Positions 17,901 to 55,300 of a DNA stretch of 64,000 nucleotides are shown here, piece after piece; the stretch's first letter is position 1, and the number at the start of each line of letters is the position of its first letter. The DNA is from Phaeodactylum tricornutum CCAP 1055/1. Lineage: Eukaryota; Bacillariophyta; Bacillariophyceae; Surirellales; Neidiaceae. The notes under the pieces are model-generated. The model did not search any database. It saw only the letters and a program-made list of their open reading frames with translations, and had not been told where the DNA came from. A program made the position numbers and the translations under genes. The stretch covers positions 377,227-441,226 of the forward strand of contig NC_011694.1 in NCBI RefSeq assembly GCF_000150955.2, written 5' to 3'.

Positions 17901-18081
17901 CAATGACAATGATTTCAGAGACTCTTTGAACGGGCCGCCTCAGATGGCTCCAGGAGAAGCTTTACCATCAGCTCCAACAAATACGCCAAAAAGCTATATG
18001 CCTAAGTCAAACTGGAAGACTTCGGACAGCAGTTCCTCTCGTCCAGCGAAAGGAAGTTCGTATTTGGACCGACTTGAATAG
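14958..18081 (+). CDS. Plastid-targeted membrane protein with Lys/Glu/Ala repeats and SYLDxL/NWKTS motifs
   Basis: The ATG at 14958 opens a signal peptide (MRFSRATLVALLVGSSVPG) ending at VSA|FVIPKS, the diatom bipartite plastid-import motif with Phe at the cleavage site. A short coiled coil follows (AAEDELRAIEEEIRKAQE). The frame must then shift from this frame to the one two bases later around 15300-15330 to continue into a membrane helix (VLAGTGLFLPLVTVAASRF). An intron at 15563-15681 (gtacgt...tcgtag) joins it to PGALAALALGGMFLF. Then come about 15 units of a KAEEKKEEARLAAEA-type repeat, a third hydrophobic segment (GLVVAGVVTVAGLAGFAAL), and a disordered C-terminus with repeated SYLDKLASGRPMQSFSSP, PPQMAP and KSYMPKxNWKTS units. 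Its function is unknown; a thylakoid or pyrenoid scaffold is only a guess. Confidence 0.7.
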
Positions 18082-19730: not shown

Positions 19731-22700
19731 CTAAAGTAGCAAGCTTCCGCCATCGTACAACTGCGTCAAACTTCGGGTGACGCCAACTAGAAGAGCCACC
19801 TCTGTGAAAGTGGTTCCTGATCCCGAAGTGTCAACTGAAACAATGGTATTCAGCCCTTGGGCAGTTGTCTGGACGAAATTTGTTATGTCTGAGAAAACTG
19901 GATCGAAACGCGGCATAAATAAGGCAAAGAGATCCAATACATCAACATCCGGAGAAATTGTATTGAAAGCATTGATCGTGTCTCGACCGTTTAGATCACC
20001 CGGCATGTAGACAAAGACATCTGGACCGGCTGATGCCACAAGAGTGTCAGCTCCCATTCCACCGCGAACGCGATCTGCTCCCCCAGCTGTTCGCAAAACG
20101 TCTGCGAAGGGAGAACCGATGATGAAATCATTGCCTAGGGTCCCATTAAACGTAATTCCTGACATGTTCGAAGTGAAGTTAGCAAGCATTCCAGGCGTGG
20201 TGGCGTTCCGCACGACCAGGCGGAAACTGTCTATCACTCCAGGGGAAAGACGTTGCGTACCGTCCAAAGAAAATGCTTCAACAGCAACTCGCAATGGAGG
20301 CACTGTAAAGCCGTTTGGACCGAGTGCCAGTTTCAAGTTGTTTGCTTGCATCTCTGTTCCAGTAAATGTAAACCCGCCAGATATGGCTTCGACTTGACCT
20401 CCTCTCTGCGGAAGCAAGTATACACCTTCTGGAACGTTGCTAAAAACGAGCTGAATCAACTCTGCCGGAAGCTCACCCGGAAAGTCACCTCGCGTGTCTG
20501 ACATTCTTACATTCAAGATCAAGTCACGGACAGTAACACCCGGTCCGAGATCGTCCACATCTTCAACAAGAATCAAGAACATATCAGCCACTGGTGCAAT
20601 ATCGACCATAAATAATGTGGAAGATGAATTAACATCGCCATTGGAAGACTCGATGGTAAAGGAAGTTAGATTCATGGTAATCGTGCCTGCAAAATTTGGC
20701 GGAGGCGTGTATCGTAGACTTGGTAGACTTGCAACCGGGATGGTCCAGGATTGGTCACCATTGTTTGAACCTGTGCTAAACAAAGAGTTCGGGGGTACGT
20801 TTGAAATGACTGCTGACAATATTTCGGCTCCATTGTCAAATACTGTATCGGCAAGCATGGAAGACAATCCAAGTAAGTCGAATTCTGTGTCTTCCTGGCC
20901 GAGAATGGTCATCATTGGTACCGTGATAAGGGGGGCATCTGCATCCGCCACGACAGATACCTCAAACGTGAAGAATGCACTATTCATACGGTCTGGGTCA
21001 GCCAGGTCGTCCGTTGGTTCCACAGATGTAGACACCACAGAAACTGGAAATTGACCATGAAAATTTGGCGGTGGAAGAACTTGAAGTCCCGGTACATCAC
21101 CTGTGGGAACACGCTGAAACCCGACAACGCTAAAGTTTCCAATCATTGCGTCACTGTCCAATAAAGTAACCAAGTCATAGCTTCCAAGGAGTGTGGCACC
21201 TCCTGAAACATTGAGGTATGTGAAATTGCCGACAATCTCACTCCCGTCAATGTCTGTTGTACCAACAATAAGGTTGAGACCTATGGGTGTATCTTCCGTT
21301 CCGGTCGGTGGGGAAGCAGAAATGCTCGGAATGTCCGCCACTGGATCAACAGTGATCTGCAACTGGAAAGGCCCAGTCGAATTCCTCAAAAGTGATACAG
21401 GATTCAGTGCAATTCCCTCAGCGGTAACGTTAAAAACTCCTGAAAAATCCGGTGGCGCGGTAATGAATACCAGCCCGCTATCAATTGCAGCTTGAGTAGT
21501 GACAAATGTGTTTGTAACAGGGTTGAACGTGCCGCCAGTAAAAGTGGCTCCTGGTGGGATATCTGAAATCACCAAGGAGATTACAGGAGTGGTAGGATCC
21601 AGAGGATCGACCGTCGCGTTGATGCTGAAAAATATCGATCCGTCTTCGTTCCCTTGGGATGGGCCGACATCAATAAATGGAGCCAAAGGTAAAACGTCAG
21701 TTCCGTTTCCTGGGCTACCTGATGCCGAGACATTGTAGACGAAATTTATCGAGTTTCTTGCCCGATCTCCATCATCAACAGCGACCGAGGTCAGAGTAAA
21801 ATCAATGCTTCCATTTACTGCAGCTGATGACCGGATGTAGATTGTGTTGTTGACCGTGGCAGTCAAATCAGACTCAGTAAGAACCCAGCTTTGGCTATCA
21901 CCAGCCACTCCAATTGGTGTCCCGCCGGCGTTTGTTACAGCGAAGTCGGAGATACCCACTCTTCCGACAGCTTGTATGATGTAATACACTTCCTCAGAAA
22001 GATTTCTTAAGAGTGCAATATCAGTGTCCGTCGACACTCCGCCGATAGTAATTGGAATTGGATCACCGGCGATACCACTTATTGCCGTGGAACTGACCGA
22101 GACGGTCGGAACGTCGGCCGTTCCAGTAATGCTCACGAGAAGATTGCCAGACTCCGTGGTGTTGACGGTAATGTTTGAACCATCACTAAAAGTTGCTAAA
22201 TCCTCGACCGTAGCAGTCACCGGGAGAGTGAAGTCAATGTTGCTGTCCAGAAACAGAGAACCGTCCAACTCCACCGTTGCAACATCGTCGGGAAGGATTG
22301 TAATGATTCCAGATCCGTCAAAGGTAAATATCCCTCGCAGAAGGTTGTTATCAATAAGGGCCTGGATTGTGGTAGAGTTGAGATCTGCGGCTCGCTGATT
22401 GATTTGGGCCCCAGCCAAAAGATTTGTTAAATCAACCGTAAAAAGTGTGGCGCTCTCGGAGTCAGGATCAGCGAGATTATAATTCAACAAGCTGCCAAAT
22501 CGAACTGGCGTTCCGCTCTCTGCCGCGCCCTCCGTGGTAGCTTCTCCTAGGCCCCAGGAGGAAAATCCATCTGCTTGTGCTCCTGTAATCTGAGGTTGCA
22601 CGTCAATCCTCAATATCCAGAAATCGGAGACTGTCTGATTCGCGTCCTTCTCTTGTGAGGTCGTTCGCAGTGTCAACGTATTGTTGTATGGGTCGCTTCC

Positions 22701-25700
22701 AGAATAGTTCGGAACCGACGGAAGCCGCAGAGTTGGGATGGCTTCGGGCGACACTTGCCATAAACCGCCTCCCAAAAAGCTTACGCCGCCGTCGACGTCG
22801 CTTCTTGGTACCACTCCAGGCGGCACTCCGCCAATAATAAGGGAGAGTCTCTCCGATCCATCGAGATCGTTCAGCGTGAGCGTAATGTTCATCATTGGGG
22901 ATGCTGCGAGAATAGCAGCGCCCAGTAAGTACGGCTGATCCTCCACGGCGAGCAACGTCACGTTCAGCACATCAGGTTTGTCGGCTACACCCTCAACAAA
23001 AACTGTGATATCCTCCTGAAAGGATGACAAGGCAGTCACACCGTTGACTGTATCGTTCACGGTAACGTTGACCCTCAAAACAATATCCCCTTGCTGTATA
23101 CTGGAGTAATTGCCCGGAGCAATGATCGTCCAATCGATGACATCCGCTGGGGTCAGAATAAAGTCACCGTTAAGTTCGGGTAGAATCACCCGATTGCCCG
23201 CTCCAAAAATTTGGGTACCAGGAGGGACGCCGTCGTAGATTACGAGAGTGAAGTTTTCGGATCCATCCACGTCAGTCAACGTGACCTCGACAGGAATATC
23301 AATTGGAGTGTCTTCAAATCCAATAGCGTTACCTCTGATGAGCGGCGTATCTGGAATTGGTTGGATAGTAATATTCAATGTCGTTGCAGCAAACGTCGAC
23401 TCGTTCTTGGCGAATGCGTTGGTGAGGCCAAAAGAGTTGGGTGCGAGATCGACTCCGTTGGCCTGTTCCGTGGAAATGGCTTCTACCTGAAGAGTGACGA
23501 TACCGGCAAAGTCTTCACGCGGGAAGAACTTGATTCCGGTTGTATCCGACGAAGTCAGAAATGTATTCAGATCGTTGAACCTCATTCCTGCATCACCAGT
23601 CGTAGCTTCAATCAAAAATTGGTCACCGGCGGCGTTCGGTGTGACACGGATGGAGCTAGACGCGCCGGTACCTCTGCCGATGACTCCAAACGGGCCGTTC
23701 CCATCGGACGGTACATAAATTCGTACGGACAGAGTTTCTGATCCATCCGTATCCGCACTCCGAAAGGCATTGATCAGTATCGGCACGCCACCCACCACGT
23801 CTTCGTTGACGGGAGCCGAATTGACCACGGTCACGTTGGGAGTGTCGGCATTGGCATCGATTCCGATAGTGAACGGCAGGGTCGTATCAAGTAGATTGGC
23901 TAGCCCCAAGTTGACGTCTACGGTTGTGACCGTGACGCTGATGACCGGATTATCGTCCGAATGAGCCTCGGTGTTGACCGAGAAGAGAGCCAGAGCGTCT
24001 CGAATCAATGCTTCTTCCGCTAGCCTCTGCATCTGTGTGAGCGTCGCGAGCATGGCCATGTTCGCGGTTAGCAGATCGCTCCGAATAATAGCCCGGTCCG
24101 CCGAATAGGAAATGGTCACCCCGTTTCCCAGACTCACGGGGCCAGCGGCGGTAGGGACGGCGGTGCCGTTGAACAAGGCGCTGAGGGTCATTGGGAAGTC
24201 CAACTGGATCACGGAAATGGTCTCGGTCGCGGGGTTGTTGGGAGGATTGGGCAAACCGTTGTCAACAACGCTCAAAGTATCTTCCAGGGCCAATCCAAAG
24301 AGAACGGGATTGATGTCTTCGATGGCTGGTAAATTTTGCGTGAAAAGGACCGCATCCGCCACGGGTTGCACGTTAACGAGGACTGGTTGCTCCATCCCGG
24401 CCACTTGATTGTCTCCGGTAGCGGTCAAGTCGACAATAACACCGCGGACGCTAATATTGAATGTTCCACTGAAATTGGGCGGTCCGCGAACGCCCAGATT
24501 AGTAAATTCACTCTGAGTGAATCGAATGTAGTCGACACTCGTATTGGCGTCCGTGATCCTCACGCCGACGCTTTGATTGGCCCCGTTGAAGAATGTGACG
24601 CCCATCAATACGGACGGGTCGTCCCGAATCTCCAGAAAGGGCAATTCGGAACCATCGGGATCGGGTGAGAGTGCCACGACGGAAATACCGGATATCCGAA
24701 AGATGGTGTCTTCCATGCCGGTCGCCGTCCCGGTAATATTGAGTACCGGTTGCGAGATGACCGGGTTGACGGGGATGAGGAACGACGCCGTGCCGGCAGC
24801 GATGGGTGAGGAAATCTCCGAGCCTCGTACTCCCGGACCCATGTCGTTGGGTTCCGTGGTGTTTGTTTCCACCGAAAAGACGGTAACGGCGACCGAAATG
24901 TCTTCGCCATTGTCGGATCCCGGACGCACTTGCAGCGCTTGCAGTGCCGCCGCGAGGGCGGCTTCCGTGCCTTGGACGACCGCGGTCGTCGTTGCTCCCG
25001 ACGTGGTCAATCCGACCGTGAATCCGGTACCGTTGCCAAAGTTCAAGTCCGGGGGCATTCCCGCACCCACCGTCGACGCGACGATCTGCACGCGTGTGAT
25101 GGATTCGGACCCGTCCGTATCGCGGGACGTAAAGCTGACGGGGTAAGTGACAAAGGGAGAGCCCTCATCGACAAAGGGCTTCGTCGCTGTCCCCACAGTG
25201 ACCTCGGGCTCATCCGCGGCGGCTTGTACCACAACCTCAAAGGTCAGACTGAACGGATTGGACGTATTGGACTGTCCGTTGGTGTCGAAGGCCGACCCCG
25301 CCAAGGTCAATACAAAATTCTCGTCGTCGTCGTTCGCCAACGTGACCAGTAAGGATTCCAACACGGTCTGGACGTTCGTCCCGTTGGCAGCGGCAATCGT
25401 CGCCACACCCGTGGCCAGATTCACTGTCGTTGCGACACCCGGAAGACTCGTGTTGAACCGCAAGTTCGTCGCGTCGGTAGGAAACCCGGAAATCGTCATG
25501 GCGACCGTTTGGGATCCATCGGCGTCGGCGCCCATGGAAAAGTTGAGGGATTGGCCAATGGGCACGACCAAGGCGGGATCTCCGACGGAGGCGTTGTTGT
25601 TTTCCTGGACGATCAGGTTGGGACTCACCAGGAAGGGCAGGTCCGACAACGGCCGGATGGTGACGCTCACGTAGGCTGTGGCGACTTCAATCTTGGTGTC

Positions 25701-28700
25701 CAAGTCGTTGGCGGTGCCGTCCGGGAGACTGTCGTTCGGCGCCAAGTCGGCGGCGGTGGCGTTCACTTCCGTGGACACTGCGTCGACGCGGATTCCCGAC
25801 ATGCCGGGAAAGACTCCGGACAGCTGCGGGCGTGGAGTGAACCGGATGTTGCCGGCAATCAAAAAGCTGTCCAGCACCAGTTCGCGAGCCGACGGGGTTT
25901 CCGTTTCGAGGCCCGTCGTGTTCACCGTGTACACGCCGTTCCCCAAATCCGTAAACACCACGGTGCCAATAGTGGCCAGGGGATTACGGGACAAGGTGCC
26001 GATAGGACCGTTGCCGTCGTTGGGAACCGTCAACACTATCGACAGTACTTCGGAATTGTCGTTGTCCACACTGCGACCGGGATTGATCGACACGGGAATG
26101 TTCACTTCGTCTTCGTTCATATCGATCGGCAGCGTCCCGATACTGGGCGGGTCGGCTCTCGCCAACACCGTCACGGGGAACAGTACACTCTCGGCACTAT
26201 TGCTGTTGGCCGGCGACGACGTTACCGTCACGTTCAACACGATCTCCACGTCCGAGTTCGCCGGCGCCGTAAAGTTCAACGCGTTCAACCGACTCAACAC
26301 GGTGCTTTCGTCCGGACCCGTGATCTCGATGGCACCGCCCGCAGGATTCAGTGGAGAAAAGGATACCAAACTGCCTCCACTATTCGTGTACACCACGGTC
26401 GCACCGAACGGAATGTTTCCGATACGAATCGAGGCGATCGGGTCCGTCCGCGGACTGATCTTGGTTATCACCAGGTCCCGACCGATTTCGTTCGCAATAT
26501 CTTCAATCACCACGGACGAACCAGAAATTGTAAAAGGATACGGGAACAACGATGGAGCTTCCGAAGGCGTACTGGAAGGCCTTGCCGACGGCAAAGTCGA
26601 AGGTTGAGACGACGGTGAGCCGGATGGCGCACCCGACGGTCTCAACGAAGGTGCACTCGAAGGATTCATTGACGGCGTGGCTGACGGTGCGCTCGACGGC
26701 GCTCCAGAGGGCGACGCACTGGGACTACCCGAAGGAGATGCGGACGGTTGACCGGAAGGCAGGCGGGAAGGCACCAGCGAGGGGACACTGGAGGGATCTC
26801 GTGATGGAGAAACCGAGGGCAGTCGCGATGGCACATCCGTTGGACTGGCCGATGGAAGTCTGGACGGACTCTCCGATGGTGACAATGACGGCATGGAGGA
26901 CGCCAGGGGCGACAAGATCACACCGATGTATCGGATTGTGGACGCAGTCTTGGTATCCGCGTCACCACCCGTTCCGTCGGCGGAACTGTTGTTTGGCGCC
27001 AGGTCCGAGTTAGTAGCGTTCTCGGTGGAAACGACTTCGACCTCTATACCGGCACTTCCTAGAAACATTCCCACCAGGCCGATTCGCGGTTGAAACTGCA
27101 GCAAGGTGGAATTCAAAAACAGATCCAGCGCGATTTCGCGGAGTTCGGGCGTGCCGAGGGTCGAGTTCACCGTGTATACGCCGGAACTGACCTCGGTAAA
27201 GGTTACGCCTGGAACAGTTCCCAGCGGGACCAGTTCACCAATGAGGTTGCCGCTGTCCATTGGTACCCGTAATATCACCGATAGAACTTCGGTGCCGTCC
27301 TGGTCGACACTACGACCGGGATTCACTCCGATCAAGCCAGGAGCGTTCTCTCGAAGGTTCAGCGGACTCACCACCGTGACTGTTACGTTGTCAGCGACCG
27401 CGAGGACCTCCACAGGAAAGGGAAAGGTTTGGTTGGAATTCGCATTCATGGGAGTAGTACGTACAGTGATATCCAGGATAAAGTCGGTGTCGGATTGCGG
27501 TGGGCCAGTGAGAATAATGCTGTTCAAAACCGCTCGTATCTGGGCCTCGTTGGCACCAGGTACGTCGAACGTGCCTCCTGCTGGATTCACAAACGTAACG
27601 GTTTGGTTGTTGCCTACAAGATCGGTGTACAACAGTATTGTCCCGGGCGGAATGCTGGAGATGACAATGTCGGCGATCTGGTCCGGTCGACCCGTGTCGA
27701 TCAGTGAGACAGTGATGTCGGGACCGATAAGCTTTGGAACATCCTCAACGATAGTTGTAGACCCCGTGATGTTGACGTTGAAGTCGAATACTGACGGAGC
27801 TTGCGAGGGCATGAGACTAGGCTGAGCTGAAGGTACACTACTCGGGACGGCTGAGGGGCTTGTAGAGGGTACAGAAGTAGGCATTCGTGATGGATCCGTA
27901 GACGGTACTGACGAAGGAGACATAGAAGGACTGCTGCTTGGTACCGAAGAGGGATTCTGGGAAGGGTTCTCCGACGGAGAAGAGGACGGTTGCACTGACG
28001 GAACAGTCGAAGGCAATGCGCTAGGACTGTTTGATGGCAGCAAGCTCGGCTGCGCCGACGGGACAGCCGTTGGGTTTCCGCTGGGTGTGGAAGAGGGAAT
28101 GCTACTCGGCCTGGCACTCGGCAACTCGGACGGGACTGCTGAGGGATCTCTTGAGGGTAGTAAGGATGGACTCGCAGAGGGAATGGCAGAAGGAGCTGAA
28201 GTTGGTTCGAGAGACGGCTGCGCCGATGGCTGCTGGGAGGGTTGACCGGAAGGCAGGCGGGAAGGCACCAGCGAGGGGACACTGGAGGGATCTCGTGATG
28301 GAGAAACCGAGGGCAGTCGCGATGGCACATCCGTTGGACTGGCTGATGGTAGTCTGGACGGGCTTTCCGATGGTGACAATGACGGCATGGAGGACGCCAG
28401 GGGCGACAAGATCACACCGATGTATCGGATTGTGGACGCAGTCTTGGTATCCGCGTCACCACCCGTTCCGTCGGCGGAACTGTTGTTTGGCGCCAGGTCC
28501 GAGTTAGTAGCGTTCTCGGTGGAAACGACTTCGACCTCAATACCGGCACTTCCTAGAAACATTCCCACCAGGCCGATTCGCGGTTGAAACTGCAGCAAGG
28601 TGGAATTCAAAAACAGATCCAGCGCGATTTCGCGGAGTTCGGGCGTGCCGAGGGTCGAGTTCACCGTGTATACGCCGGAACTGACCTCGGTAAAGGTTAC

Positions 28701-31700: not shown

Positions 31701-31733
31701 AGGAGCGTTCTCTCGAAGGTTCAGCGGACTCAC
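19731..31733 (-). CDS. Giant adhesin-like protein, C-terminal section (after the frameshift)
   Basis: About 4,000 codons, continuing the upstream section in a frame lost by one missing base near 31733. It starts inside a 498-residue repeat and holds three further FDFNVNITG repeat copies with PSxxPS stalks. A different PS stalk (SASPSGSPS, ~26.6-26.75 kb) follows, then about 2,200 unique residues of Ig/cadherin-like repeats. Each has an EDTP- or NEDV-type start, a D-x-DGSE-x-L motif and a closing ADxP, the pattern of bacterial type I-secreted adhesin repeats. Near the C-terminus (about 20.15-19.96 kb) lies GTLGNDFIIG, AGGADRVRGGMGADTLVAS and GPDVFVY, an RTX-like calcium-binding repeat. Many N-x-S/T sites suggest glycosylation. 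A cell-surface adhesion or matrix role is inferred. Long plus-strand frames over it are compositional shadows. Confidence 0.85.
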   Translation of the reverse strand: MSPLNLRENAPGLIGVNPGRSVDQDGTEVLSVILRVPMDSGNLIGELVPLGTVPGVTFTEVSSGVYTVNSTLGTPELREIALDLFLNSTLLQFQPRIGLVGMFLGSAGIEVEVVSTENATNSDLAPNNSSADGTGGDADTKTASTIRYIGVILSPLASSMPSLSPSESPSRLPSASPTDVPSRLPSVSPSRDPSSVPSLVPSRLPSGQPSQQPSAQPSLEPTSAPSAIPSASPSLLPSRDPSAVPSELPSARPSSIPSSTPSGNPTAIPSAQPSLLPSNSPSALPSTVPSVQPSSSPSENPSQNPSSVPSSSPSMSPSSVPSTDPSRMPTSVPSTSPSAVPSSVPSAQPSLMPSQAPSVFDFNVNITGSTTIVEDVPKLIGPDITVSLIDTGRPDQIADIVISSIPPGTMLTYIDPAGNTQTATFVNPAGGTFDVPGANEAQIRAVLNSIILTGPPQSDTDFILDITVRTTPMNANSNQTFPFPVEVLAVADNVTVTVVSPLNLRENAPGLIGVNPGRSVDQDGTEVLSVILRVPMDSGNLIGELVPLGTVPGVTFTEVSSGVYTVNSTLGTPELREIALDLFLNSTLLQFQPRIGLVGMFLGSAGIEVEVVSTENATNSDLAPNNSSADGTGGDADTKTASTIRYIGVILSPLASSMPSLSPSESPSRLPSASPTDVPSRLPSVSPSRDPSSVPSLVPSRLPSGQPSQQPSAQPSLEPTSAPSAIPSASPSLLPSRDPSVVPSELPSARPSSIPSSTPSGNPTAIPSAQPSLLPSNSPSALPSTVPSVQPSSSPSRMPTSHPSNIPSLLPSQTPSVFDFNVNITGSTTIVEDVPELIGPDITVSLIDTGRPDQIADIVISSIPPGTMLTYIDPAGNTQTATFVNPAGGTFDVPGANEAQIRAVLNSIILTGPPQSDTDFILDITVRTTPMNANSNQTFPFPVEVLAVADNVTVTVVSPLNLRENAPGLIGVNPGRSVDQDGTEVLSVILRVPMDSGNLIGELVPLGTVPGVTFTEVSSGVYTVNSTLGTPELREIALDLFLNSTLLQFQPRIGLVGMFLGSAGIEVEVVSTENATNSDLAPNNSSADGTGGDADTKTASTIRYIGVILSPLASSMPSLSPSESPSRLPSASPTDVPSRLPSVSPSRDPSSVPSLVPSRLPSGQPSQQPSAQPSLEPTSAPSAIPSASPSLLPSRDPSAVPSELPSARPSSIPSSTPSGNPTAVPSAQPSLLPSNSPSALPSTVPSVQPSSSPSENPSQNPSSVPSSSPSMSPSSVPSTDPSRMPTSVPSTSPSAVPSSVPSAQPSLMPSQAPSVFDFNVNITGSTTIVEDVPKLIGPDITVSLIDTGRPDQIADIVISSIPPGTILLYTDLVGNNQTVTFVNPAGGTFDVPGANEAQIRAVLNSIILTGPPQSDTDFILDITVRTTPMNANSNQTFPFPVEVLAVADNVTVTVVSPLNLRENAPGLIGVNPGRSVDQDGTEVLSVILRVPMDSGNLIGELVPLGTVPGVTFTEVSSGVYTVNSTLGTPELREIALDLFLNSTLLQFQPRIGLVGMFLGSAGIEVEVVSTENATNSDLAPNNSSADGTGGDADTKTASTIRYIGVILSPLASSMPSLSPSESPSRLPSASPTDVPSRLPSVSPSRDPSSVPSLVPSRLPSGQPSASPSGSPSASPSGAPSSAPSATPSMNPSSAPSLRPSGAPSGSPSSQPSTLPSARPSSTPSEAPSLFPYPFTISGSSVVIEDIANEIGRDLVITKISPRTDPIASIRIGNIPFGATVVYTNSGGSLVSFSPLNPAGGAIEITGPDESTVLSRLNALNFTAPANSDVEIVLNVTVTSSPANSNSAESVLFPVTVLARADPPSIGTLPIDMNEDEVNIPVSINPGRSVDNDNSEVLSIVLTVPNDGNGPIGTLSRNPLATIGTVVFTDLGNGVYTVNTTGLETETPSARELVLDSFLIAGNIRFTPRPQLSGVFPGMSGIRVDAVSTEVNATAADLAPNDSLPDGTANDLDTKIEVATAYVSVTIRPLSDLPFLVSPNLIVQENNNASVGDPALVVPIGQSLNFSMGADADGSQTVAMTISGFPTDATNLRFNTSLPGVATTVNLATGVATIAAANGTNVQTVLESLLVTLANDDDENFVLTLAGSAFDTNGQSNTSNPFSLTFEVVVQAAADEPEVTVGTATKPFVDEGSPFVTYPVSFTSRDTDGSESITRVQIVASTVGAGMPPDLNFGNGTGFTVGLTTSGATTTAVVQGTEAALAAALQALQVRPGSDNGEDISVAVTVFSVETNTTEPNDMGPGVRGSEISSPIAAGTASFLIPVNPVISQPVLNITGTATGMEDTIFRISGISVVALSPDPDGSELPFLEIRDDPSVLMGVTFFNGANQSVGVRITDANTSVDYIRFTQSEFTNLGVRGPPNFSGTFNISVRGVIVDLTATGDNQVAGMEQPVLVNVQPVADAVLFTQNLPAIEDINPVLFGLALEDTLSVVDNGLPNPPNNPATETISVIQLDFPMTLSALFNGTAVPTAAGPVSLGNGVTISYSADRAIIRSDLLTANMAMLATLTQMQRLAEEALIRDALALFSVNTEAHSDDNPVISVTVTTVDVNLGLANLLDTTLPFTIGIDANADTPNVTVVNSAPVNEDVVGGVPILINAFRSADTDGSETLSVRIYVPSDGNGPFGVIGRGTGASSSIRVTPNAAGDQFLIEATTGDAGMRFNDLNTFLTSSDTTGIKFFPREDFAGIVTLQVEAISTEQANGVDLAPNSFGLTNAFAKNESTFAATTLNITIQPIPDTPLIRGNAIGFEDTPIDIPVEVTLTDVDGSENFTLVIYDGVPPGTQIFGAGNRVILPELNGDFILTPADVIDWTIIAPGNYSSIQQGDIVLRVNVTVNDTVNGVTALSSFQEDITVFVEGVADKPDVLNVTLLAVEDQPYLLGAAILAASPMMNITLTLNDLDGSERLSLIIGGVPPGVVPRSDVDGGVSFLGGGLWQVSPEAIPTLRLPSVPNYSGSDPYNNTLTLRTTSQEKDANQTVSDFWILRIDVQPQITGAQADGFSSWGLGEATTEGAAESGTPVRFGSLLNYNLADPDSESATLFTVDLTNLLAGAQINQRAADLNSTTIQALIDNNLLRGIFTFDGSGIITILPDDVATVELDGSLFLDSNIDFTLPVTATVEDLATFSDGSNITVNTTESGNLLVSITGTADVPTVSVSSTAISGIAGDPIPITIGGVSTDTDIALLRNLSEEVYYIIQAVGRVGISDFAVTNAGGTPIGVAGDSQSWVLTESDLTATVNNTIYIRSSAAVNGSIDFTLTSVAVDDGDRARNSINFVYNVSASGSPGNGTDVLPLAPFIDVGPSQGNEDGSIFFSINATVDPLDPTTPVISLVISDIPPGATFTGGTFNPVTNTFVTTQAAIDSGLVFITAPPDFSGVFNVTAEGIALNPVSLLRNSTGPFQLQITVDPVADIPSISASPPTGTEDTPIGLNLIVGTTDIDGSEIVGNFTYLNVSGGATLLGSYDLVTLLDSDAMIGNFSVVGFQRVPTGDVPGLQVLPPPNFHGQFPVSVVSTSVEPTDDLADPDRMNSAFFTFEVSVVADADAPLITVPMMTILGQEDTEFDLLGLSSMLADTVFDNGAEILSAVISNVPPNSLFSTGSNNGDQSWTIPVASLPSLRYTPPPNFAGTITMNLTSFTIESSNGDVNSSSTLFMVDIAPVADMFLILVEDVDDLGPGVTVRDLILNVRMSDTRGDFPGELPAELIQLVFSNVPEGVYLLPQRGGQVEAISGGFTFTGTEMQANNLKLALGPNGFTVPPLRVAVEAFSLDGTQRLSPGVIDSFRLVVRNATTPGMLANFTSNMSGITFNGTLGNDFIIGSPFADVLRTAGGADRVRGGMGADTLVASAGPDVFVYMPGDLNGRDTINAFNTISPDVDVLDLFALFMPRFDPVFSDITNFVQTTAQGLNTIVSVDTSGSGTTFTEVALLVGVTRSLTQLYDGGSLLL

Positions 31734-34700
31734 ACCGTGACTGTTACGTTGTCAGCGACCGCGAGGACCTCCACAGGAAAGGGAAAGGTTTGGTTGGAAT
31801 TCGCATTCATGGGAGTAGTACGTACAGTGATATCCAGGATAAAGTCGGTGTCGGATTGCGGTGGGCCAGTGAGAATAATGCTGTTCAAAACCGCTCGTAT
31901 CTGGGCCTCGTTCGCACCAGGTACGTCGAACGTGCCTCCTGCTGGATTCACAAACGTCGCTGTTTGGGTGTTACCTGCGGGATCTATGTACGTTAGCATT
32001 GTCCCGGGCGGAATGCTGGAGATGACAATGTCGGCGATCTGGTCCGGTCGACCCGTGTCGATCAGTGAGACAGTGATGTCGGGACCGATAAGCTTTGGAA
32101 CATCCTCAACGATAGTTGTAGACCCCGTGATGTTGACGTTGAAGTCGAATACTGACGGAGCTTGCGAGGGCATGAGACTAGGCTGAGCTGAAGGTACACT
32201 ACTCGGGACGGCTGAGGGGCTTGTAGAGGGTACAGAAGTAGGCATTCGTGATGGATCCGTAGACGGTACTGACGAAGGAGACATAGAAGGACTGCTGCTT
32301 GGTACCGAAGAGGGATTCTGGGAAGGGTTCTCCGACGGAGAAGAGGACGGTTGCACTGACGGAACAGTCGAAGGCAATGCGCTAGGACTGTTTGATGGCA
32401 GCAAGCTCGGCTGCGCCGACGGGATAGCCGTTGGGTTTCCGCTGGGTGTGGAAGAGGGAATGCTACTCGGCCTGGCACTCGGCAACTCGGACGGGACTGC
32501 TGAGGGATCTCTTGAGGGTAGTAAGGATGGACTCGCAGAGGGAATGGCAGAAGGAGCTGAAGTTGGTTCGAGAGACGGCTGCGCCGATGGCTGCTGGGAG
32601 GGTTGACCGGAAGGCAGGCGGGAAGGCACCAGCGAGGGGACACTGGAGGGATCTCGTGATGGAGAAACCGAGGGCAGTCGCGATGGCACATCCGTTGGAC
32701 TGGCTGATGGTAGTCTGGACGGGCTTTCCGATGGTGACAATGACGGCATGGAGGACGCCAGGGGCGACAAGATCACCCCGATGTATCGGATTGTGGACGC
32801 AGTCTTGGTATCCGCGTCACCACCCGTTCCGTCGGCGGAACTGTTGTTTGGCGCCAGGTCCGAGTTAGTAGCGTTCTCGGTGGAAACGACTTCGACCTCA
32901 ATACCGGCACTTCCTAGAAACATTCCCACCAGGCCGATTCGCGGTTGAAACTGCAGCAAGGTGGAATTCAAAAACAGATCCAGCGCGATTTCGCGGAGTT
33001 CGGGCGTGCCGAGGGTCGAGTTCACCGTGTATACGCCGGAACTGACCTCGGTAAAGGTTACGCCTGGAACAGTTCCCAGCGGGACCAGTTCACCAATGAG
33101 GTTGCCGCTGTCCATTGGTACCCGTAATATCACCGATAGAACTTCGGTGCCGTCCTGGTCGACACTACGACCGGGATTCACTCCGATCAAGCCAGGAGCG
33201 TTCTCTCGAAGGTTCAGCGGACTCACCACCGTGACTGTTACGTTGTCAGCGACCGCGAGGACCTCCACAGGAAAGGGAAAGGTTTGGTTGGAATTCGCAT
33301 TCATGGGAGTAGTACGTACAGTGATATCCAGGATAAAGTCGGTGTCGGATTGCGGTGGGCCAGTGAGAATAATGCTGTTCAAAACCGCTCGTATCTGGGC
33401 CTCGTTCGCACCAGGTACGTCGAACGTGCCTCCTGCTGGATTCACAAACGTCGCTGTTTGGGTGTTACCTGCGGGATCTATGTACGTTAGCATTGTCCCG
33501 GGCGGAATGCTGGAGATGACAATGTCGGCGATCTGGTCCGGTCGACCCGTGTCGATCAGTGAGACAGTGATGTCGGGACCGATAAGCTCTGGAACATCCT
33601 CAACGATAGTTGTAGACCCCGTGATGTTGACGTTGAAGTCGAATACTGACGGAGCTTGCGAGGGCATGAGACTAGGCTGAGCTGAAGGTACACTACTCGG
33701 GACGGCTGAGGGGCTTGTAGAGGGTACAGAAGTAGGCATTCGTGATGGATCCGTAGACGGTACTGACGAAGGAGACATAGAAGGACTGCTGCTTGGTACC
33801 GAAGAGGGATTCTGGGAAGGGTTCTCCGACGGAGAAGAGGACGGTTGCACTGACGGAACAGTCGAAGGCAATGCGCTAGGACTGTTTGATGGCAGCAAGC
33901 TCGGCTGCGCCGACGGGACAGCCGTTGGGTTTCCGCTGGGTGTGGAAGAGGGAATGCTACTCGGCCTGGCACTCGGCAACTCGGACGGGACTGCTGAGGG
34001 ATCTCGTGAGGGTAGTAAGGATGGACTCGCAGAGGGAATGGCAGAAGGAGCTGAAGTTGGTTCGAGAGACGGCTGCGCCGATGGCTGCTGGGAGGGTTGA
34101 CCGGAAGGCAGGCGGGAAGGCACCAGCGAGGGGACACTGGAGGGATCTCGTGATGGAGAAACCGAGGGCAGTCGCGATGGCACATCCGTTGGACTGGCTG
34201 ATGGTAGTCTGGACGGGCTTTCCGATGGTGACAATGACGGCATGGAGGACGCCAGGGGCGACAAGATCACCCCGATGTATCGGATTGTGGACGCAGTCTT
34301 GGTATCCGCGTCACCACCCGTTCCGTCGGCGGAACTGTTGTTTGGCGCCAGGTCCGAGTTAGTAGCGTTCTCGGTGGAAACGACTTCGACCTCAATACCG
34401 GCACTTCCTAGAAACATTCCCACCAGGCCGATTCGCGGTTGAAACTGCAGCAAGGTGGAATTCAAAAACAGATCCAGCGCGATTTCGCGGAGTTCGGGCG
34501 TGCCGAGGGTCGAGTTCACCGTGTATACGCCGGAACTGACCTCGGTAAAGGTTACGCCTGGAACAGTTCCCAGCGGGACCAGTTCACCAATGAGGTTGCC
34601 GCTGTCCATTGGTACCCGTAATATCACCGATAGAACTTCGGTGCCGTCCTGGTCGACACTACGACCGGGATTCACTCCGATTAAGCCAGGAGCGTTCTCT

Positions 34701-35503
34701 CGAAGGTTCAGCGGACTCACCACCGTGACTGTTACGTTGTCAGCGACCGCGAGGACCTCCACAGGAAAGGGAAAGGTTTGGTTGGAATTCGCATTCATGG
34801 GAGTAGTACGTACAGTGATATCCAGGATAAAGTCGGTGTCGGATTGCGGTGGGCCAGTGAGAATAATGCTGTTCAAAACCGCTCGTATCTGGGCCTCGTT
34901 CGCACCAGGTACGTCGAACGTGCCTCCTGCTGGATTCACAAACGTCGCTGTTTGGGTGTTACCTGCGGGATCTATGTACGTTAGCATTGTCCCGGGCGGA
35001 ATGCTGGAGATGACAATGTCGGCGATCTGGTCCGGTCGACCCGTGTCGATCAGTGAGACAGTGATGTCGGGACCGATAAGCTTTGGAACATCCTCAACGA
35101 TAGTTGTAGACCCCGTGATGTTGACGTTGAAGTCGAATACTGACGGAGCTTGCGAGGGCATGAGACTAGGCTGAGCTGAAGGTACACTACTCGGGACGGC
35201 TGAGGGGCTTGTAGAGGGTACAGAAGTAGGCATTCGTGATGGATCCGTAGACGGTACTGACGAAGGAGACATAGAAGGACTGCTGCTTGGTACCGAAGAG
35301 GGATTCTGGGAAGGGTTCTCCGACGGAGAAGAGGACGGTTGCACTGACGGAACAGTCGAAGGCAATGCGCTAGGACTGTTTGATGGCAGCAAGCTCGGCT
35401 GCGCCGACGGGACAGCCGTTGGGTTTCCGCTGGGTGTGGAAGAGGGAATGCTACTCGGCCTGGCACTCGGCAACTCGGACGGGACTGCTGAGGGATCTCG
35501 TGA
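26748..35503 (-). repeat. Array of six near-identical 1,494-bp tandem coding repeats
   Basis: The same internal landmark recurs at 26893, 28387, 29761, 31255, 32748 and 34242. Spacings are 1494, 1374, 1494, 1493 and 1494 bp. Five spacings therefore equal 498 codons, except that one copy lacks 120 bp of the Pro-Ser stalk (in frame) and one lacks a single base (frameshift). Copies differ at very few positions; an example is the ILLYTDLVGN variant against MLTYIDPAGN. Each unit encodes two Ig-like domains and a PSxxPS stalk. The near identity implies recent duplication or gene conversion. Confidence 0.95.
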
Positions 35504-38278
35504 GGGCAATAACGTTGGCAGTGCTGAAGGCAAGAGACTAGGAAGCGAGGAAGGAAGTAGACTCGGTTCCTCGGAAGGTTTCCAGGTAGGATCGGTTGAT
35601 GGGTTTTTTGAAGGCGAGATCGACGGCAACCTTGTGGGGTAAGTCGACGGTTCTTTGGAAGGGAAACCCGAAGGAGTCGTACTTGGATTCATGGAGGGAG
35701 ATTCGGAATTTAATGGGGCAATGATGACATCAATAAATGTAAAGGAGGACTCTGTTTTTGCGTCTGGATCAGTTGGCGACGGCCCGGCTAGATCGGTCCC
35801 AACATTGCTTGCGTTCTCTGTTGATATCAATTGAATCTGAATGCCATCTGGACCGAGAAATGTGCCTATGAGAGCTGGACGGGCCGAAAATTCGACTCCA
35901 AAACTCAAAAACACGTCCAGTGCAGCCTCACGGAGTTCTGGTGTATCTCCTGTAGCGTTAACAAGGTACATGCCATTTCCCAAAGACGTAAAGACAACAT
36001 TTGGCACATTAACATTGGCAGCAGGGGAGATGCTTCCAATTGGCCCGACGCCATCGCTTCCGATTGTTATGACCAATGACAAAGTCTCAGTGTTGTCACT
36101 ATCACGACTGCGATTCGGAAATATCATGAGACGCTGTGATCCATTTTCGTCAATGAAAAGATTGTTGGCCGTGACAGTGGGCTCGTCAGCAACAGCAAGA
36201 ACGACCACAGGAAAATCGAACACCTCAATAGTGTTTTCGTTGGTAGCTGGAACAGTCGTGACAGTAATTGCCAAAGTGAAGTCAGAATCCGAGTCAGGTG
36301 GTGGTTGAACAGATAGAGTACTCAAACGCTGTCGTATTTCTGCTTCGTCACCCTCAATAATAACTGTTGCCCCAAAGGGACCGACTAGGGTTATCTCTAG
36401 ATTTCCCATGTTCATTATTGTCACGTTCGAGTTTGCGGGGAAGCCAGTAATGCTAATGGACGAAAGCGTGTCCGGGCGTTGAGGGAATAGATTAATGAGC
36501 TGGATATTCTGGCCGATGTTTGTGGCAGCGTCTTCATTTACAGTCGAGTTGCCTGACAGCTCGAACGCAAAGTCTCCTCCGGATGGCATACTCGACGGAT
36601 TGCCAGTTGATGGGAAGCCGGTAGGAAGAGTGCTCGGTGAGTCGGACAAAGTGGTCGAAGGACGAATTGACGGAACAAGAGAAGGTCCTACACTTGGCAA
36701 GCTTGATGGGCTGCTCGACGGTGACAAGCTCGGCTTCAAAGATGGCATCGTGGAAGGCGACAGTGACGGGACCACAGAAGGTACGTCAGTCGGAAAACTC
36801 GAGCTCCTGACCGATGGATCACTGGTGGGAGCAATAGCCGATGGAAAGCTGGGAGCACCAGATCTGATGGCTATCAAAACGACATTGATAAATCCGAAGG
36901 CTGACTCCACTTTTGTATTCATATCTCCTCCGGTGCCATCTAGAATGCTATCGTTGGGGGCAAGTCCTTCTCCAAATCTATCCGCCCGTTCCGTCGCGAC
37001 AACTTCAACAACTATTCCATTCGTACCGATAAATTCACCGCTCAAGCCAGGCACAGGTGTGAATTTGATACCGTTGGAAAGAAAGGTTTTAAGTGCGAAC
37101 TCGCTCAAGGCGGAATCTAGATTGGTAGAGATGACCGAGTATAGGCCATTGCCCAAGTTTGCAAAGACAATGCCCGGTGGGGAGATGTTTAAATCATTAG
37201 TCAGCTCTCCAATAGGTAGTCCTGTCCTGTTGTCGATTGGAACACGAATGGAAACGGAAAGAATCTCTGACCCATCGTGATCTCTGCTTCGACTGACGTC
37301 AATGCTCAAATTGTCGTCTTCGCTCTCAGCCAAAGTGACATTCCCAGCAGAGACACTGGGGAGGTCAGCAACTGCCTGCAGGATCACAGGAAAATTGAAC
37401 GAATTCTCTGTGTCGGCATCTATCCCATTGCTAGAAACCAAAGTGACATTCAGATCGAAGTCAACATCCGAATCGGCCGGAGGTGAGAACAGGAAGGAGT
37501 TGATTCGATCTCGTAATCTAGCTTCGTCGCTGTCAGTGAGAGTCAAGTAGGAACCTCCATTCGGGCCGACAAGCCAAATTTGCATGTTACCGGCATCGTC
37601 CACATAGGAAACATTCGAATTGGCTGGGAATCCTCGGAAAGTTATTGACTTAAGCTGAGCAGGGTCATTGGGATCAATCTTGACTATCGAGATTCCGCGG
37701 CCAATGTTCTTGGCAATATCTTCCACGACCGTGGCGTTCCCGTTTAGTTGGAATGGGAACTCAGCTGGAGGAAGCGAAGAAGGGTTTCCCGTGGGAACAG
37801 TGGATGGGTACGAGGTAGGCCTTGTGGAACCCTGACCGGCTGGATTTCGGGTAGGGATGACAGAAGGATAGGCAGTACGTTGGTGTGAGGGAGGGTCTTC
37901 TTGGTCGATTGACGGACTGGCGGAAGGTGTGCAGCGATCGGCGATGAATTTCAGGTATCCTTTCACACGTGGAGAATCCGAGTTGCCGTAGATACCATGA
38001 TTACCATAGCCAAACGCGTTGTTGTGATAGTAGCCGTTGAAGCCATCCAGGGTAGATTCGGATTTACCCTTTTTGGAGCCCAGACGTCTTGGATTTTTCT
38101 TATTGGAAAGAGGAGTCTTATGACTATCAGAGAATGAAGAAGACGAATCACTAAATCCTTTCCCCTTTCCTCCTTTGCCGCTTTTATGCGTAACAGGAGA
38201 CGAGGTCAGATCCTCGGTTGGAAAGTTTGTTGCAGGACTGAGGGTCGGATTACTGGAGGGAATTCCGGGACATTCAAT
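31730..38278 (-). CDS. Giant adhesin-like protein, exon 2 up to the frameshift
   Basis: Exon 2 begins at 38278, after a tgcag acceptor, with IECPGIPSSNPT. A Ser/Gly/Lys and Gly/Tyr/His-rich section follows, then two diverged Ig-like modules with their own PS stalks (about 37.8-35.7 kb). The tandem 498-residue repeats come next: QAPSVFDFNVNITGSTT, VEDVPKLIGPD, LNLRENAPGLIGVNPGRS and DADTKTASTIRYIGVILSP, each with a PSxxPS stalk. The frame ends at a TGA (31732-31730) only because caccaccgtg, present in the other copies, is cacaccgtg here. With that base the frame runs straight into the downstream section. Confidence 0.85.
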   Translation of the reverse strand: MECPGIPSSNPTLSPATNFPTEDLTSSPVTHKSGKGGKGKGFSDSSSSFSDSHKTPLSNKKNPRRLGSKKGKSESTLDGFNGYYHNNAFGYGNHGIYGNSDSPRVKGYLKFIADRCTPSASPSIDQEDPPSHQRTAYPSVIPTRNPAGQGSTRPTSYPSTVPTGNPSSLPPAEFPFQLNGNATVVEDIAKNIGRGISIVKIDPNDPAQLKSITFRGFPANSNVSYVDDAGNMQIWLVGPNGGSYLTLTDSDEARLRDRINSFLFSPPADSDVDFDLNVTLVSSNGIDADTENSFNFPVILQAVADLPSVSAGNVTLAESEDDNLSIDVSRSRDHDGSEILSVSIRVPIDNRTGLPIGELTNDLNISPPGIVFANLGNGLYSVISTNLDSALSEFALKTFLSNGIKFTPVPGLSGEFIGTNGIVVEVVATERADRFGEGLAPNDSILDGTGGDMNTKVESAFGFINVVLIAIRSGAPSFPSAIAPTSDPSVRSSSFPTDVPSVVPSLSPSTMPSLKPSLSPSSSPSSLPSVGPSLVPSIRPSTTLSDSPSTLPTGFPSTGNPSSMPSGGDFAFELSGNSTVNEDAATNIGQNIQLINLFPQRPDTLSSISITGFPANSNVTIMNMGNLEITLVGPFGATVIIEGDEAEIRQRLSTLSVQPPPDSDSDFTLAITVTTVPATNENTIEVFDFPVVVLAVADEPTVTANNLFIDENGSQRLMIFPNRSRDSDNTETLSLVITIGSDGVGPIGSISPAANVNVPNVVFTSLGNGMYLVNATGDTPELREAALDVFLSFGVEFSARPALIGTFLGPDGIQIQLISTENASNVGTDLAGPSPTDPDAKTESSFTFIDVIIAPLNSESPSMNPSTTPSGFPSKEPSTYPTRLPSISPSKNPSTDPTWKPSEEPSLLPSSLPSLLPSALPTLLPSRDPSAVPSELPSARPSSIPSSTPSGNPTAVPSAQPSLLPSNSPSALPSTVPSVQPSSSPSENPSQNPSSVPSSSPSMSPSSVPSTDPSRMPTSVPSTSPSAVPSSVPSAQPSLMPSQAPSVFDFNVNITGSTTIVEDVPKLIGPDITVSLIDTGRPDQIADIVISSIPPGTMLTYIDPAGNTQTATFVNPAGGTFDVPGANEAQIRAVLNSIILTGPPQSDTDFILDITVRTTPMNANSNQTFPFPVEVLAVADNVTVTVVSPLNLRENAPGLIGVNPGRSVDQDGTEVLSVILRVPMDSGNLIGELVPLGTVPGVTFTEVSSGVYTVNSTLGTPELREIALDLFLNSTLLQFQPRIGLVGMFLGSAGIEVEVVSTENATNSDLAPNNSSADGTGGDADTKTASTIRYIGVILSPLASSMPSLSPSESPSRLPSASPTDVPSRLPSVSPSRDPSSVPSLVPSRLPSGQPSQQPSAQPSLEPTSAPSAIPSASPSLLPSRDPSAVPSELPSARPSSIPSSTPSGNPTAVPSAQPSLLPSNSPSALPSTVPSVQPSSSPSENPSQNPSSVPSSSPSMSPSSVPSTDPSRMPTSVPSTSPSAVPSSVPSAQPSLMPSQAPSVFDFNVNITGSTTIVEDVPELIGPDITVSLIDTGRPDQIADIVISSIPPGTMLTYIDPAGNTQTATFVNPAGGTFDVPGANEAQIRAVLNSIILTGPPQSDTDFILDITVRTTPMNANSNQTFPFPVEVLAVADNVTVTVVSPLNLRENAPGLIGVNPGRSVDQDGTEVLSVILRVPMDSGNLIGELVPLGTVPGVTFTEVSSGVYTVNSTLGTPELREIALDLFLNSTLLQFQPRIGLVGMFLGSAGIEVEVVSTENATNSDLAPNNSSADGTGGDADTKTASTIRYIGVILSPLASSMPSLSPSESPSRLPSASPTDVPSRLPSVSPSRDPSSVPSLVPSRLPSGQPSQQPSAQPSLEPTSAPSAIPSASPSLLPSRDPSAVPSELPSARPSSIPSSTPSGNPTAIPSAQPSLLPSNSPSALPSTVPSVQPSSSPSENPSQNPSSVPSSSPSMSPSSVPSTDPSRMPTSVPSTSPSAVPSSVPSAQPSLMPSQAPSVFDFNVNITGSTTIVEDVPKLIGPDITVSLIDTGRPDQIADIVISSIPPGTMLTYIDPAGNTQTATFVNPAGGTFDVPGANEAQIRAVLNSIILTGPPQSDTDFILDITVRTTPMNANSNQTFPFPVEVLAVADNVTVTV

Positions 38279-38386
38279 CTGCAAAAAAAGGAACTAGTGT
38301 ATGAGGCTCTGTTCTGTACTTGCTTAGTGTGCCCTTCTATGCATTTAAAAACAACTCAAAAATCTTGAAGATCAACTCTTCCTTAC

Positions 38387-39262
38387 CTCGATATGATCCC
38401 ACCAATGACCCCCGCCCCCCTTTCCCTTTCCTTTTCCAGTAACAAAACCAGGAGAAGTTTCGTAGTAATATTCAGCCCAGTGGTCATCGTCATGCCAATG
38501 CCAGTGTCCAGGCTGATAGCCGGGTCCAAAGTACGGGGGGCCGTCAAAGTACCCAGAACCAGACTTTCCTGGAGGATCTCCTTTCTTAGAGCCATTGCCT
38601 TTTCCCTGAGAAGGCGGAGGGTAAGGATTATACCATGGTGGCGGGCCGAATAAATTTGGCGGCCCCTGTATTGGCGGTGGAGGCTCGGAGACATCGGGTT
38701 CATCAGCGCTATCATCGACGGATTTTGCTTTCCCCGCCTTAACGCTAGTTCTGGTCGGGCTAGTACTCTTGTTGCTTGTTGTTTGTCCTTCCTTGGTGGG
38801 ACTCTCAATGGGTGAGCTTCCAGCAGGCATGGAGCTCTTGCTAGTTCCTGCTTTGACACCCTTCGCACTGCTGCCCTTGGGAGCGTTTCCTTTGGAGCTG
38901 TTAGAAAGGGCATCACCGGGCGATGCTGTCTTTTTCGATGATCCTTTCGAGGAAGAAGATAGATCGTCTTCCGCAGCGGCGCTATCGTCTTGCGAGCCAG
39001 ATAGACGTGATGTTAAGACCTGGGACGACTCCCTGCTACGGTTAGCGTCTACCACTAGACGCATGAGGAAGGCACTTATCACGAGTAGCATGATCACAAC
39101 AAATCCTTGAAAGACACTGAAACGGCGTTTCTGTTTTCCGGGGTTGGGATATGAAAGAGGCTCCTCACCGTCGGCAGGATACTCTCCCGCAGCGAGGTCG
39201 CACTCCGTTGCCGCATACGAAACGGGTTCTGGCGAGCCGGATTCTTCTGCGACTGGCGTCAT
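38387..39262 (-). CDS. Giant adhesin-like protein, exon 1 (membrane anchor)
   Basis: This exon has 292 codons from the ATG at 39262 (MTPVAEESG); the open frame upstream stops shortly before and lacks an ATG. A 50-residue N-terminal tail ends in the basic KQKRR and is followed by one hydrophobic helix (about 51-71, FVVIMLLVISAFLMRLVV). This suggests a type II signal anchor with the huge C-terminal part outside the cytosol. The rest is a Ser/Lys linker and a Pro, Gly, His, Trp and Tyr-rich segment (GPPPWYNPYPPP, GHWHWHDDDHWAEYYYE). The exon ends WDHIE at a gtaagg donor. The 108-nt intron (38386-38279) joins in phase 0 to the giant exon 2. The total product would be about 6,470 residues. Confidence 0.8.
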
Positions 39263-46005: not shown

Positions 46006-46455
46006 CTAGACCTTTGTAAGAACATCAGCCAAATTCGTATCCGTAGGTTCATACGCAATCTTGATAACTTTCGCGGCAACACATTCACGAACAAAGTGAT
46101 ATGCAATGGCATTACTCTTCTTCAACATTGACTCCGGAGCTGTAGTATTATAAACCACAGACATATTGTCGCACAAAACTCTAGCAGCACCGTCGATAGG
46201 AATACCCATCATACGTAGCTTGTATTGTAGACCTTGAATCATCTCAGTAGCGGTCTTAAGTGCAACAAATTCGCTTCCAAAAGTAGAGGTCTCGACTGAA
46301 TTCTGGCGCTTAGAAAACCACATAGTCGGAGCGCGATTCACATAAATCAAAACACATGTACGAGAACGACGAGTAACACGGTCTCCCGCATGGTCAGCGT
46401 CAACAAGCGTTGTAATTTCAACAGCCTTACCGCGAGGTTGCGGTGCATTTGCCAT
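46006..46455 (-). pseudogene. Copia RNase H domain (separate frame)
   Basis: The frame contains APQPRGKAVEI, the RNase H motif VDADHAGDRVTRRSRT, APTMWFSKRQNSVETSTFGSE, LCDNMSVV, YHFVRECVAAKVI and NLADVLTKV, the usual C-terminal block of copia polyproteins. It is out of frame with the reverse transcriptase: a disturbed segment at about 46444-46520, including one arm of an inverted repeat, interrupts the join. Confidence 0.8.
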
Positions 46456-52158: not shown

Positions 52159-52215
52159 TAGATAACTGCAACGATAACCGACTAGAATCGCACTAGAATA
52201 GCACAAGATCACTAG
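52159..52215 (-). repeat. 5' LTR of the copia element, left fragment
   Basis: This matches the first 57 bp (plus-strand order) of the LTR at 45618 and ends at the ctag target of the nested transposon. The terminal tagaaaa is changed to tagataa. Confidence 0.85.
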
Positions 52216-55007: not shown

Positions 55008-55117
55008 CTAGTGTAGTTACGAAACAGAGCAAAACACAAATTATACCATTATCTGCCTGAGCAGACCAGTCTTAGTCTAACGTACATATGACAGACGCTT
55101 GACGTGGGGTTTTTCTA
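55008..55117 (-). repeat. 5' LTR of the copia element, right fragment
   Basis: This resumes the LTR at ctagtgtagttacg and runs to ggggtttttcta, matching the right two-thirds of the copy at 45618-45780 almost base for base. Confidence 0.85.
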
Positions 55118-55300
55118 CGTACAAACTTGACTGTGAATTGAAAAGAAAATCGTGTCGTGCCACACCCAAAATCATGACAGCTTTCCGTTACATAAAAAAA
55201 GCCATTGCATGCTTTTGCAACATCAACCATCAGCAATCCGAAAAGCTTCTTTTGGAAGCCAGTAGAGTTGGAAGCAGAAGTAGCAGCAGTGGGGACCGCC

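Follow-up and report, generated by a model that had tools for sequence, protein, structure and literature searches.

A giant gene near a chromosome end of Phaeodactylum tricornutum, with a C-terminal array related to bacterial RTX adhesins

The gene and its bacterial-type array

Using a 64,000-nucleotide stretch of the Phaeodactylum tricornutum CCAP 1055/1 genome (the window, positions 377227-441226 of contig C26 in a source assembly of 27,450,724 bases in 88 contigs), we analyzed a very large adhesin-like gene on the minus strand, which runs from an ATG at window position 39262 to 19731, and which lies approximately 24 kb from the chromosome end, where a TAGGGT telomere array occupies positions 63677-64000. 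A short first exon encoding a probable membrane anchor precedes an 18.5-kb coding stretch. In it, two-domain modules and PSxxPS runs (the stalks, 1,328 residues in all) each occur nine times, and an array forms the C-terminal part. It is this array that points to the origin of the gene: a blastp comparison of the window protein with L028, a protein of a Hyphomicrobium metagenome-assembled genome, gave one uninterrupted stretch (Table 1) covering the C-terminal 60% of L028, with the N-terminal 40% of L028 having no collinear match. A second protein of this type, L029, matched at 40% identity. In 50 local shuffles the score never rose above 28.5 bits, against 1,347 bits for the real tail, and this difference, together with open frames of 4,000 and 2,182 codons, excludes chance. 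Generic RTX likeness alone is ruled out as an explanation by the collinear match over the whole array and by its collapse in the local shuffles.

The array ends in the elements expected of a bacterial RTX adhesin. The RTX nonapeptide repeat PF00353 is present near the C-terminus in a partly eroded form (27.8 bits, cut-off 23), and the type I secretion target domain TIGR03661 scores above its NCBIfam cut-off when the last 249 residues are scanned alone, but is not listed at E<=0.1 when the whole 4,000-residue frame is scanned. By profile and by fold the tail is an RTX beta-roll as in serralysins, although the structure model of the tail is weak (pLDDT 61, pTM 0.39) and we used its RTX part alone; the tail profile also matches, at 4e-7, the "Antifreeze protein" entry 5juh, which we take to be MpAFP. 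The RTX-like tail described in an initial annotation of this DNA is thus real, but it is only the end of an approximately 2,250-residue bacterial adhesin array that includes the secretion-target domain. No ligand-binding family occurs among the Pfam matches of the window protein. Since this is a eukaryotic gene with a predicted intron and a signal-anchor, export by type I secretion is not expected of its product, which would be a descendant of RTX adhesins and not a working type I secretion substrate.

Relatives of the array are found in bacteria. Scanning prokaryote genomes with an alignment of the tail (A2), we confirmed 21 loci among 99 pattern stretches, with the first six, from five metagenome-assembled genomes, belonging to Filomicrobium, Hyphomicrobium and one further alphaproteobacterium (40-57% over the best segment), and the next to Azospirillum, Desulfovibrio-type bacteria and Ruegeria. 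The complete bacterial open reading frames (L029, L028 and L027) encode 3,394-3,848 residues, and downstream of L027 and L028, the two loci tested, we found genes for a TolC-family protein, an LssB-type ABC transporter and HlyD; the TolC match at L028 falls slightly below its cut-off (217.3 vs 225.15), and the remaining transporter matches pass. A targeted search matched 7 of 8 genomes, all except that of Ruegeria, and 3 of the 8 matched over 1,973 to 2,262 of 2,266 residues at 42-46%. Array-type genes are nevertheless rare among related genomes, with matches in 6 of 103 genomes in the family of G003 at E<=1e-40, and in 6 of 397 in its order and 8 of 385 in its class at E<=1e-20, where G003 alone matched the full query; these sets include genomes already found by the A2 scan. 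Four Azospirillum plasmids cover 96-97% of a 973-residue part at 27% identity, and the plasmid search with the module alone gave zero matches. Patterns made from the Ig array (A1) produced no confirmed relative in genome contigs (157 stretches) or viral contigs (114), and, since direct comparison later revealed relatives in genome contigs, the A1 patterns were too narrow for these contigs.

Cadherins and integrins appear among the Foldseek and VIA rows, and we also considered that the array is an ancient eukaryotic cadherin-like protein whose bacterial likeness arose by convergence or by transfer from diatoms to bacteria. Within our comparison, which covers bacterial arrays and this diatom genome, we regard this as highly improbable in view of the collinear identity over 2,280 columns, the bacterial secretion-target domain, the type I secretion genes adjoining the bacterial relatives, and the more distant arrays in Azospirillum and Desulfovibrio-type bacteria. 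Among Pfam matches at E<=0.1 the window protein has no cadherin family, and the sole Cadherin_5 match, in bacterial L028, lies below cut-off (17.7 vs 26.5).

The genome contains a second copy on contig 3, which shares the array and tail but differs in its N-terminal part and lacks the stalk. Three introns were removed in our model of this paralogue, and another in-frame intron is likely. It carries both RTX repeats and TIGR03661 (38.5 bits, cut-off 17.6), and, because the RTX motif is better kept there and eroded in the window gene, relaxed constraint on the motif is suggested for the latter. The two diatom proteins are 36.6% identical to each other, and each is 40-43% identical to Hyphomicrobium. 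By eye, the paralogue begins with what looks like a signal peptide and is probably secreted; its N-terminal part ahead of the bacterial array comprises about 300 residues, contains cysteines and has no Pfam match. Pieces of the C-terminal array with in-frame stops on contig 22 (355621-355899 and 366481-366760) are probably the remains of another copy.

An 11-row tree puts the two diatom proteins together (98/98) among alphaproteobacterial sequences, a pairing flagged as a meeting of long branches, and their grouping with G280 lacks support (45/13). When G155, G280 and one diatom row are removed (8 rows), each diatom row alone still branches in the same position, between Filomicrobium and the Hyphomicrobium-G046 group. 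The Azospirillum and Halodesulfovibrio rows were kept out of the trees, since the repeated domains in them can be aligned in several alternative registers. The simplest explanation is a single transfer with a later duplication, but there may have been two separate transfers of the array. From the homology, its derivation from a bacterial RTX adhesin by horizontal transfer appears close to certain. On the assembled sequence the gene is not a contaminant, because introns are predicted in both copies, PSxxPS loci occur genome-wide, a copia-type reverse transcriptase lies alongside, and the contig runs into the telomere.

Table 1. Features of the adhesin gene (window coordinates) and its paralogue
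Feature	Position	Strand	Basis or note
Exon 1, 292 codons: N-terminal tail (residues 1-52), signal-anchor, Lys/Ser-rich and Trp/Tyr/His/Pro-rich segments	38387..39262	-	sequence, hydropathy, composition
Transmembrane helix, residues 53-71, KQKRR on N side; putative type II topology	39050..39106	-	19-residue Kyte-Doolittle mean 2.67
Trp/Tyr/His/Pro/Gly-rich segment, residues 209-292	38387..38638	-	20 W/Y/H in 84 residues
Predicted intron, phase 0, GT-AG, 108 nt	38279..38386	-	predicted from sequence; retention would bring in four in-frame stops
Exon 2 frame a, closed by TGA after 2,182 codons; covers stalks, modules 1-4 and the beginning of module 5	31730..38278	-	open reading frame
Exon 2 frame b, closed by a stop after 4,000 codons	19731..31733	-	open reading frame
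Frameshift point in unit 3, one base short vs five other units	31730..31733	-	unit alignment
Two-domain module 1, residues 466-770	36845..37759	-	38.8% to L028 1487-1763
Two-domain module 2, residues 862-1166	35657..36571	-	38.3% to L028 1486-1778
Six tandem units (module and PSxxPS stalk)	26541..35137	-	unit alignment
Unit 1	35137-33644	-	
Unit 2	33643-32150	-	
Unit 3	32149-30657	-	1,493 nt
Unit 4	30656-29283	-	1,374 nt
Unit 5	29282-27789	-	
Unit 6	from 27788 to module 9	-	
Module 9, residues 4206-4510, runs on into bacterial-type array	25626..26540	-	41% to L028 1488-1774 (stop-to-stop frame numbering)
Bacterial RTX-adhesin array, residues 4209-6460, collinear with Hyphomicrobium L028 1484-3689	19776..26531	-	blastp 41%, 2,280 columns, 1,343 bits
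RTX calcium-binding nonapeptide repeat (HemolysinCabind), partly degenerate	20040..20144	-	Pfam
Type I secretion C-terminal target domain (TIGR03661 T1SS_VCA0849)	19770..19982	-	20.7 bits, cut-off 17.6
Paralogue	C3:358447-365030 (L014 from 3447)		spliced model 2,118 aa

Modules, stalks and the reading frame

The two-domain modules resemble the start of the matched part of L028. The structure predicted for one module is mainly beta with two short helices (pLDDT 84.8, pTM 0.66), and, with the 41% collinear identity, this agrees with the tandem beta-sandwich extenders of bacterial RTX adhesins. Neither Pfam nor NCBIfam holds a model that the modules match above cut-off, and a sequence search of the PDB with the module gave a best E of 0.16, to an unrelated entry. 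In the module tree, from which L059 and L060 were left out because their alignment was too short, a single branch (100/100) separates the nine diatom modules, without exception, from the six bacterial modules. Since the diatom modules group apart from the bacterial module that they resemble, the tree places the amplification of the module after the transfer, with the copies set between PSxxPS stalks.

These stalks, already described in the initial annotation, match the Pfam PT disordered repeat in both frames, at 136 and 148 bits. PSxxPS-like long stretches are present at many other loci (C5:744796-754087, C13:112088-121567, C25:111295-114378 and others), and on this basis the genome appears to carry a large set of stalk-bearing proteins. 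The open frames at these loci reach 3,432, then 3,159 and 2,867 residues in a lower-bound list, and so the window gene is exceptionally large among them, as first claimed; the claim does not extend to diatoms at large, where trail proteins of approximately 900 kDa and >1 MDa are described in parts of one report (PMC11420354).

The tandem units have a period of 1,494 nt (unit 6 was cut at this nominal length for the comparison), and units 1, 2, 3 and 5 differ mutually by only 3-5 bases (99.7-99.8% identical). As assembled, the coding stretch was not the single open exon first proposed: its length stands, but it is read in two frames that overlap by four bases, with frame a ending in a TGA at 31732-31730, and unit 3 is one base shorter at 31.73 kb than all five sister units. 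Laid end to end, exon 1 and the two frames (292+2182+4000) give 6,474 residues and about 667 kDa, so that the earlier figure of about 6,470 residues holds as a count, for a single protein that we infer across a frame broken in the assembly. Because 4,000 codons stay open after 31.73 kb, the defect either arose in sequencing or assembly or is of very recent date, and short unit 3 may accordingly represent such an error or a recent lesion. The near-identity of units 1, 2, 3 and 5 makes both the number of units and the missing base weak points of the assembly. The P. tricornutum reference genome was obtained by Sanger sequencing, and tandem rRNA copies were collapsed in old reference assemblies, as stated in sections of PMC8147415, so the unit count here is uncertain too. 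An error or a recent lesion seems to us likelier than a programmed frameshift or a small intron at 31.7 kb, since the five sister units read the donor-like site found there as coding sequence.

If short unit 3 were real and fixed, the gene would be a recent pseudogene making a truncated, 2,474-residue anchor-plus-stalk protein with the array untranslated. The TGA in the assembly and the degenerate, stop-bearing fragments elsewhere in the genome fit such a history, but with 4,000 stop-free codons downstream, and with the defect placed in one of four near-identical units, where assembly errors are expected, we consider it improbable. The two overlapping frames could also represent two genes, one for an anchored stalk protein (39.3-31.7 kb) and one for an RTX-type protein with its own start (31.7-19.7 kb); this is scarcely credible, as the break lies inside a module and the same stretch is uninterrupted in the five sister units.

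A module fragment is also present in the window near the telomere, at 59091-59406 (within 58937-59421), with 86% DNA identity to the units of the gene and with in-frame stops. Such fragments sit in a small dispersed repeat, with further copies at C55:8127, C1:975397, C57:11 and C27:316399. Next to it, at 59465-59800, is a repeat of about 336 bp that is up to 99% identical at many genome sites and is probably subtelomeric, with copies on C3, C5, C19 and C24 lying within 1.1 kb of the contig start. Between the adhesin gene and the telomere (46347-58431) are a copia-type reverse transcriptase (RVT_2), a DDE transposase (PF13843) and an exostosin GT47 gene. On the other side of the gene, an open reading frame at 11656-13677 has a CobS-like N-terminal part and a DBI_PRT C-terminal part, which we take to be CobT-like, as in a fused late cobalamin assembly gene, and a 796-residue open reading frame at 15691-18081 contains tandem repeats of 60-66 nt in which Lys and Glu codons are abundant, with no Pfam match at E<=1e-5.

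The membrane anchor and a proposed history

The first exon joins the next coding stretch in phase across the predicted intron, as had been claimed, and in a search of the whole genome at E<=0.001 it matched nothing but itself. The helix it encodes is a probable type II signal-anchor, judged by eye from hydropathy and the KQKRR motif, and the anatomy supports the anchor put forward in the initial annotation. A Lys/Ser-rich stretch separates the helix from the Trp/Tyr/His/Pro-rich segment. The protein as a whole contains 14% Ser, 11% Pro and 117 NxS/T sites, a composition that would allow heavy glycosylation.

The same composition would suit a released component of matrix, trail or wall, in which the helix acts as a signal sequence, or cleavage beyond the membrane frees the protein, and the array cross-links secreted polysaccharide. 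The contig-3 paralogue, with its apparent signal peptide and no such anchor, is in line with this, as are the giant proteins of another raphid diatom found in adhesive trails, according to parts of PMC11420354. In the window protein, however, the helix sits 52 residues in and is preceded by KQKRR, which by eye favours a retained anchor, and we therefore consider release rather unlikely.

We consider it likely that the gene came from bacteria by horizontal transfer as an RTX adhesin, and that a eukaryotic signal-anchor and added length turned it into a cell-surface tether. Its anatomy, and the homology to bacterial adhesins beside type I secretion genes, bear out the single large surface or adhesion protein first envisaged. 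A diatom ancestor would have acquired an RTX adhesin gene of the type-I-secreted kind from a hyphomicrobial alphaproteobacterium or a close relative, and a eukaryotic N-terminus (a tail of about 50 residues, the signal-anchor, and the Lys/Ser-rich and Trp/Tyr/His-rich segments) would have been put ahead of the C-terminal part of this adhesin. The captured part begins with the two-domain module, which would then have multiplied to nine copies with PSxxPS stalks between. The contig-3 paralogue would have taken a different course, ending up with a signal peptide and another N-terminal part in front of an array and tail that have no stalks. The anchor may route the protein via the endoplasmic reticulum to the plasma membrane and leave the C-terminus facing outwards, the membrane-proximal segments may occupy the zone of the cell wall, and the stalks, which would measure approximately 0.4 um if fully extended, may hold the bacterial array beyond the wall, where calcium-stiffened beta-sandwiches would offer their distal end to surfaces, matrix or other cells. 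Recombination between the near-identical 1.5-kb units could change the length of the stalk. The secretion-target domain would have no export role in the diatom, and would be kept as structure or as a relic. Adhesion, like any role in gliding, is what we infer from this arrangement.

Relation to known adhesins and to diatom gliding

The closest known systems are the Hyphomicrobium/Filomicrobium-type RTX adhesins. L028 and L029 correspond in both order and sequence to the last 2,250 residues of the diatom protein, and L027, L030 and L026 resemble it over roughly the last 1,200-1,440 columns; RTX repeats, an end of the type I secretion type and the two-domain module are common to the diatom protein and adhesins of this type, including L049. 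Unlike L028, the diatom protein has a signal-anchor, a predicted intron, PSxxPS stalks and nine copies of the module. Its N-terminal membrane anchor presumably stands in place of the outer-membrane retention module of RTX adhesins. The adhesins MpIBP/MpAFP, MhLap and AhLap, as described in parts of PMC7493085, are likewise giant proteins with a tandem beta-sandwich extender, which calcium stiffens, and RTX repeats, but the diatom protein has a eukaryotic host and its module has no relative in the PDB by sequence.

Among diatom proteins, the trailins (CaTrailin4; Ca5609) are also giant, modular surface proteins in the portions of PMC11420354 and PMC10713564 consulted, but CaTrailin_4 has an ice-binding-like beta-helix (PMC10713564, in part), and so belongs to another fold and family. 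No match to the choice-of-anchor A (trailin-type) family was found among the Pfam and NCBIfam matches of the window protein at E<=0.1. We take choice-of-anchor A (CAA) to be the name of the trailin domain; a 2023 paper by Zackova Suchanova, going by its title, is said to describe trailins as acquired from bacteria. Giant diatom trail proteins of bacterial origin are reported in parts of PMC11420354, and the raphid diatom Nitzschia inconspicua likewise has bacterial-type adhesin annotations (n = 11), in "outer membrane adhesin" families of which several clusters are described as unique to that species (PMC8329260, in part), a likeness in annotation. In the best-ranked results of our literature search, which are no proof of absence, we noticed no paper on this gene, nor any eukaryotic membrane-anchored descendant of an RTX adhesin with a secretion-target domain and post-transfer module amplification. 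RTX adhesins and bacterial-origin diatom trail proteins are known already, and what appears new is a membrane-anchored eukaryotic descendant with a secretion-target domain and amplified modules.

Current models of diatom gliding need a transmembrane complex that links actomyosin to the adhesive strands (PMC11420354, PMC13056149), and the parts of these two papers examined name no protein for it. It is tempting to propose that the window protein is this membrane-spanning link of the raphid diatom adhesion motility complex, with its cytosolic tail connected to the actomyosin side, its stalks passing through the wall or raphe, its bacterial adhesin gripping the surface, and its reach set by the number of 1.5-kb units, but we give this only a small chance of being correct. 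The gene is a low-probability but concrete and taggable candidate for the link, in what is probably a transformable model species. Whatever its role, what appears to persist here in the nuclear genome of a eukaryote is a bacterial giant adhesin of the type-I-secreted kind whose secretion-target domain can still be recognized, and this gene may be a second bacterial source of diatom adhesives besides the trailins. If it did prove to be the link, then diatom gliding would run on a bacterial adhesin.

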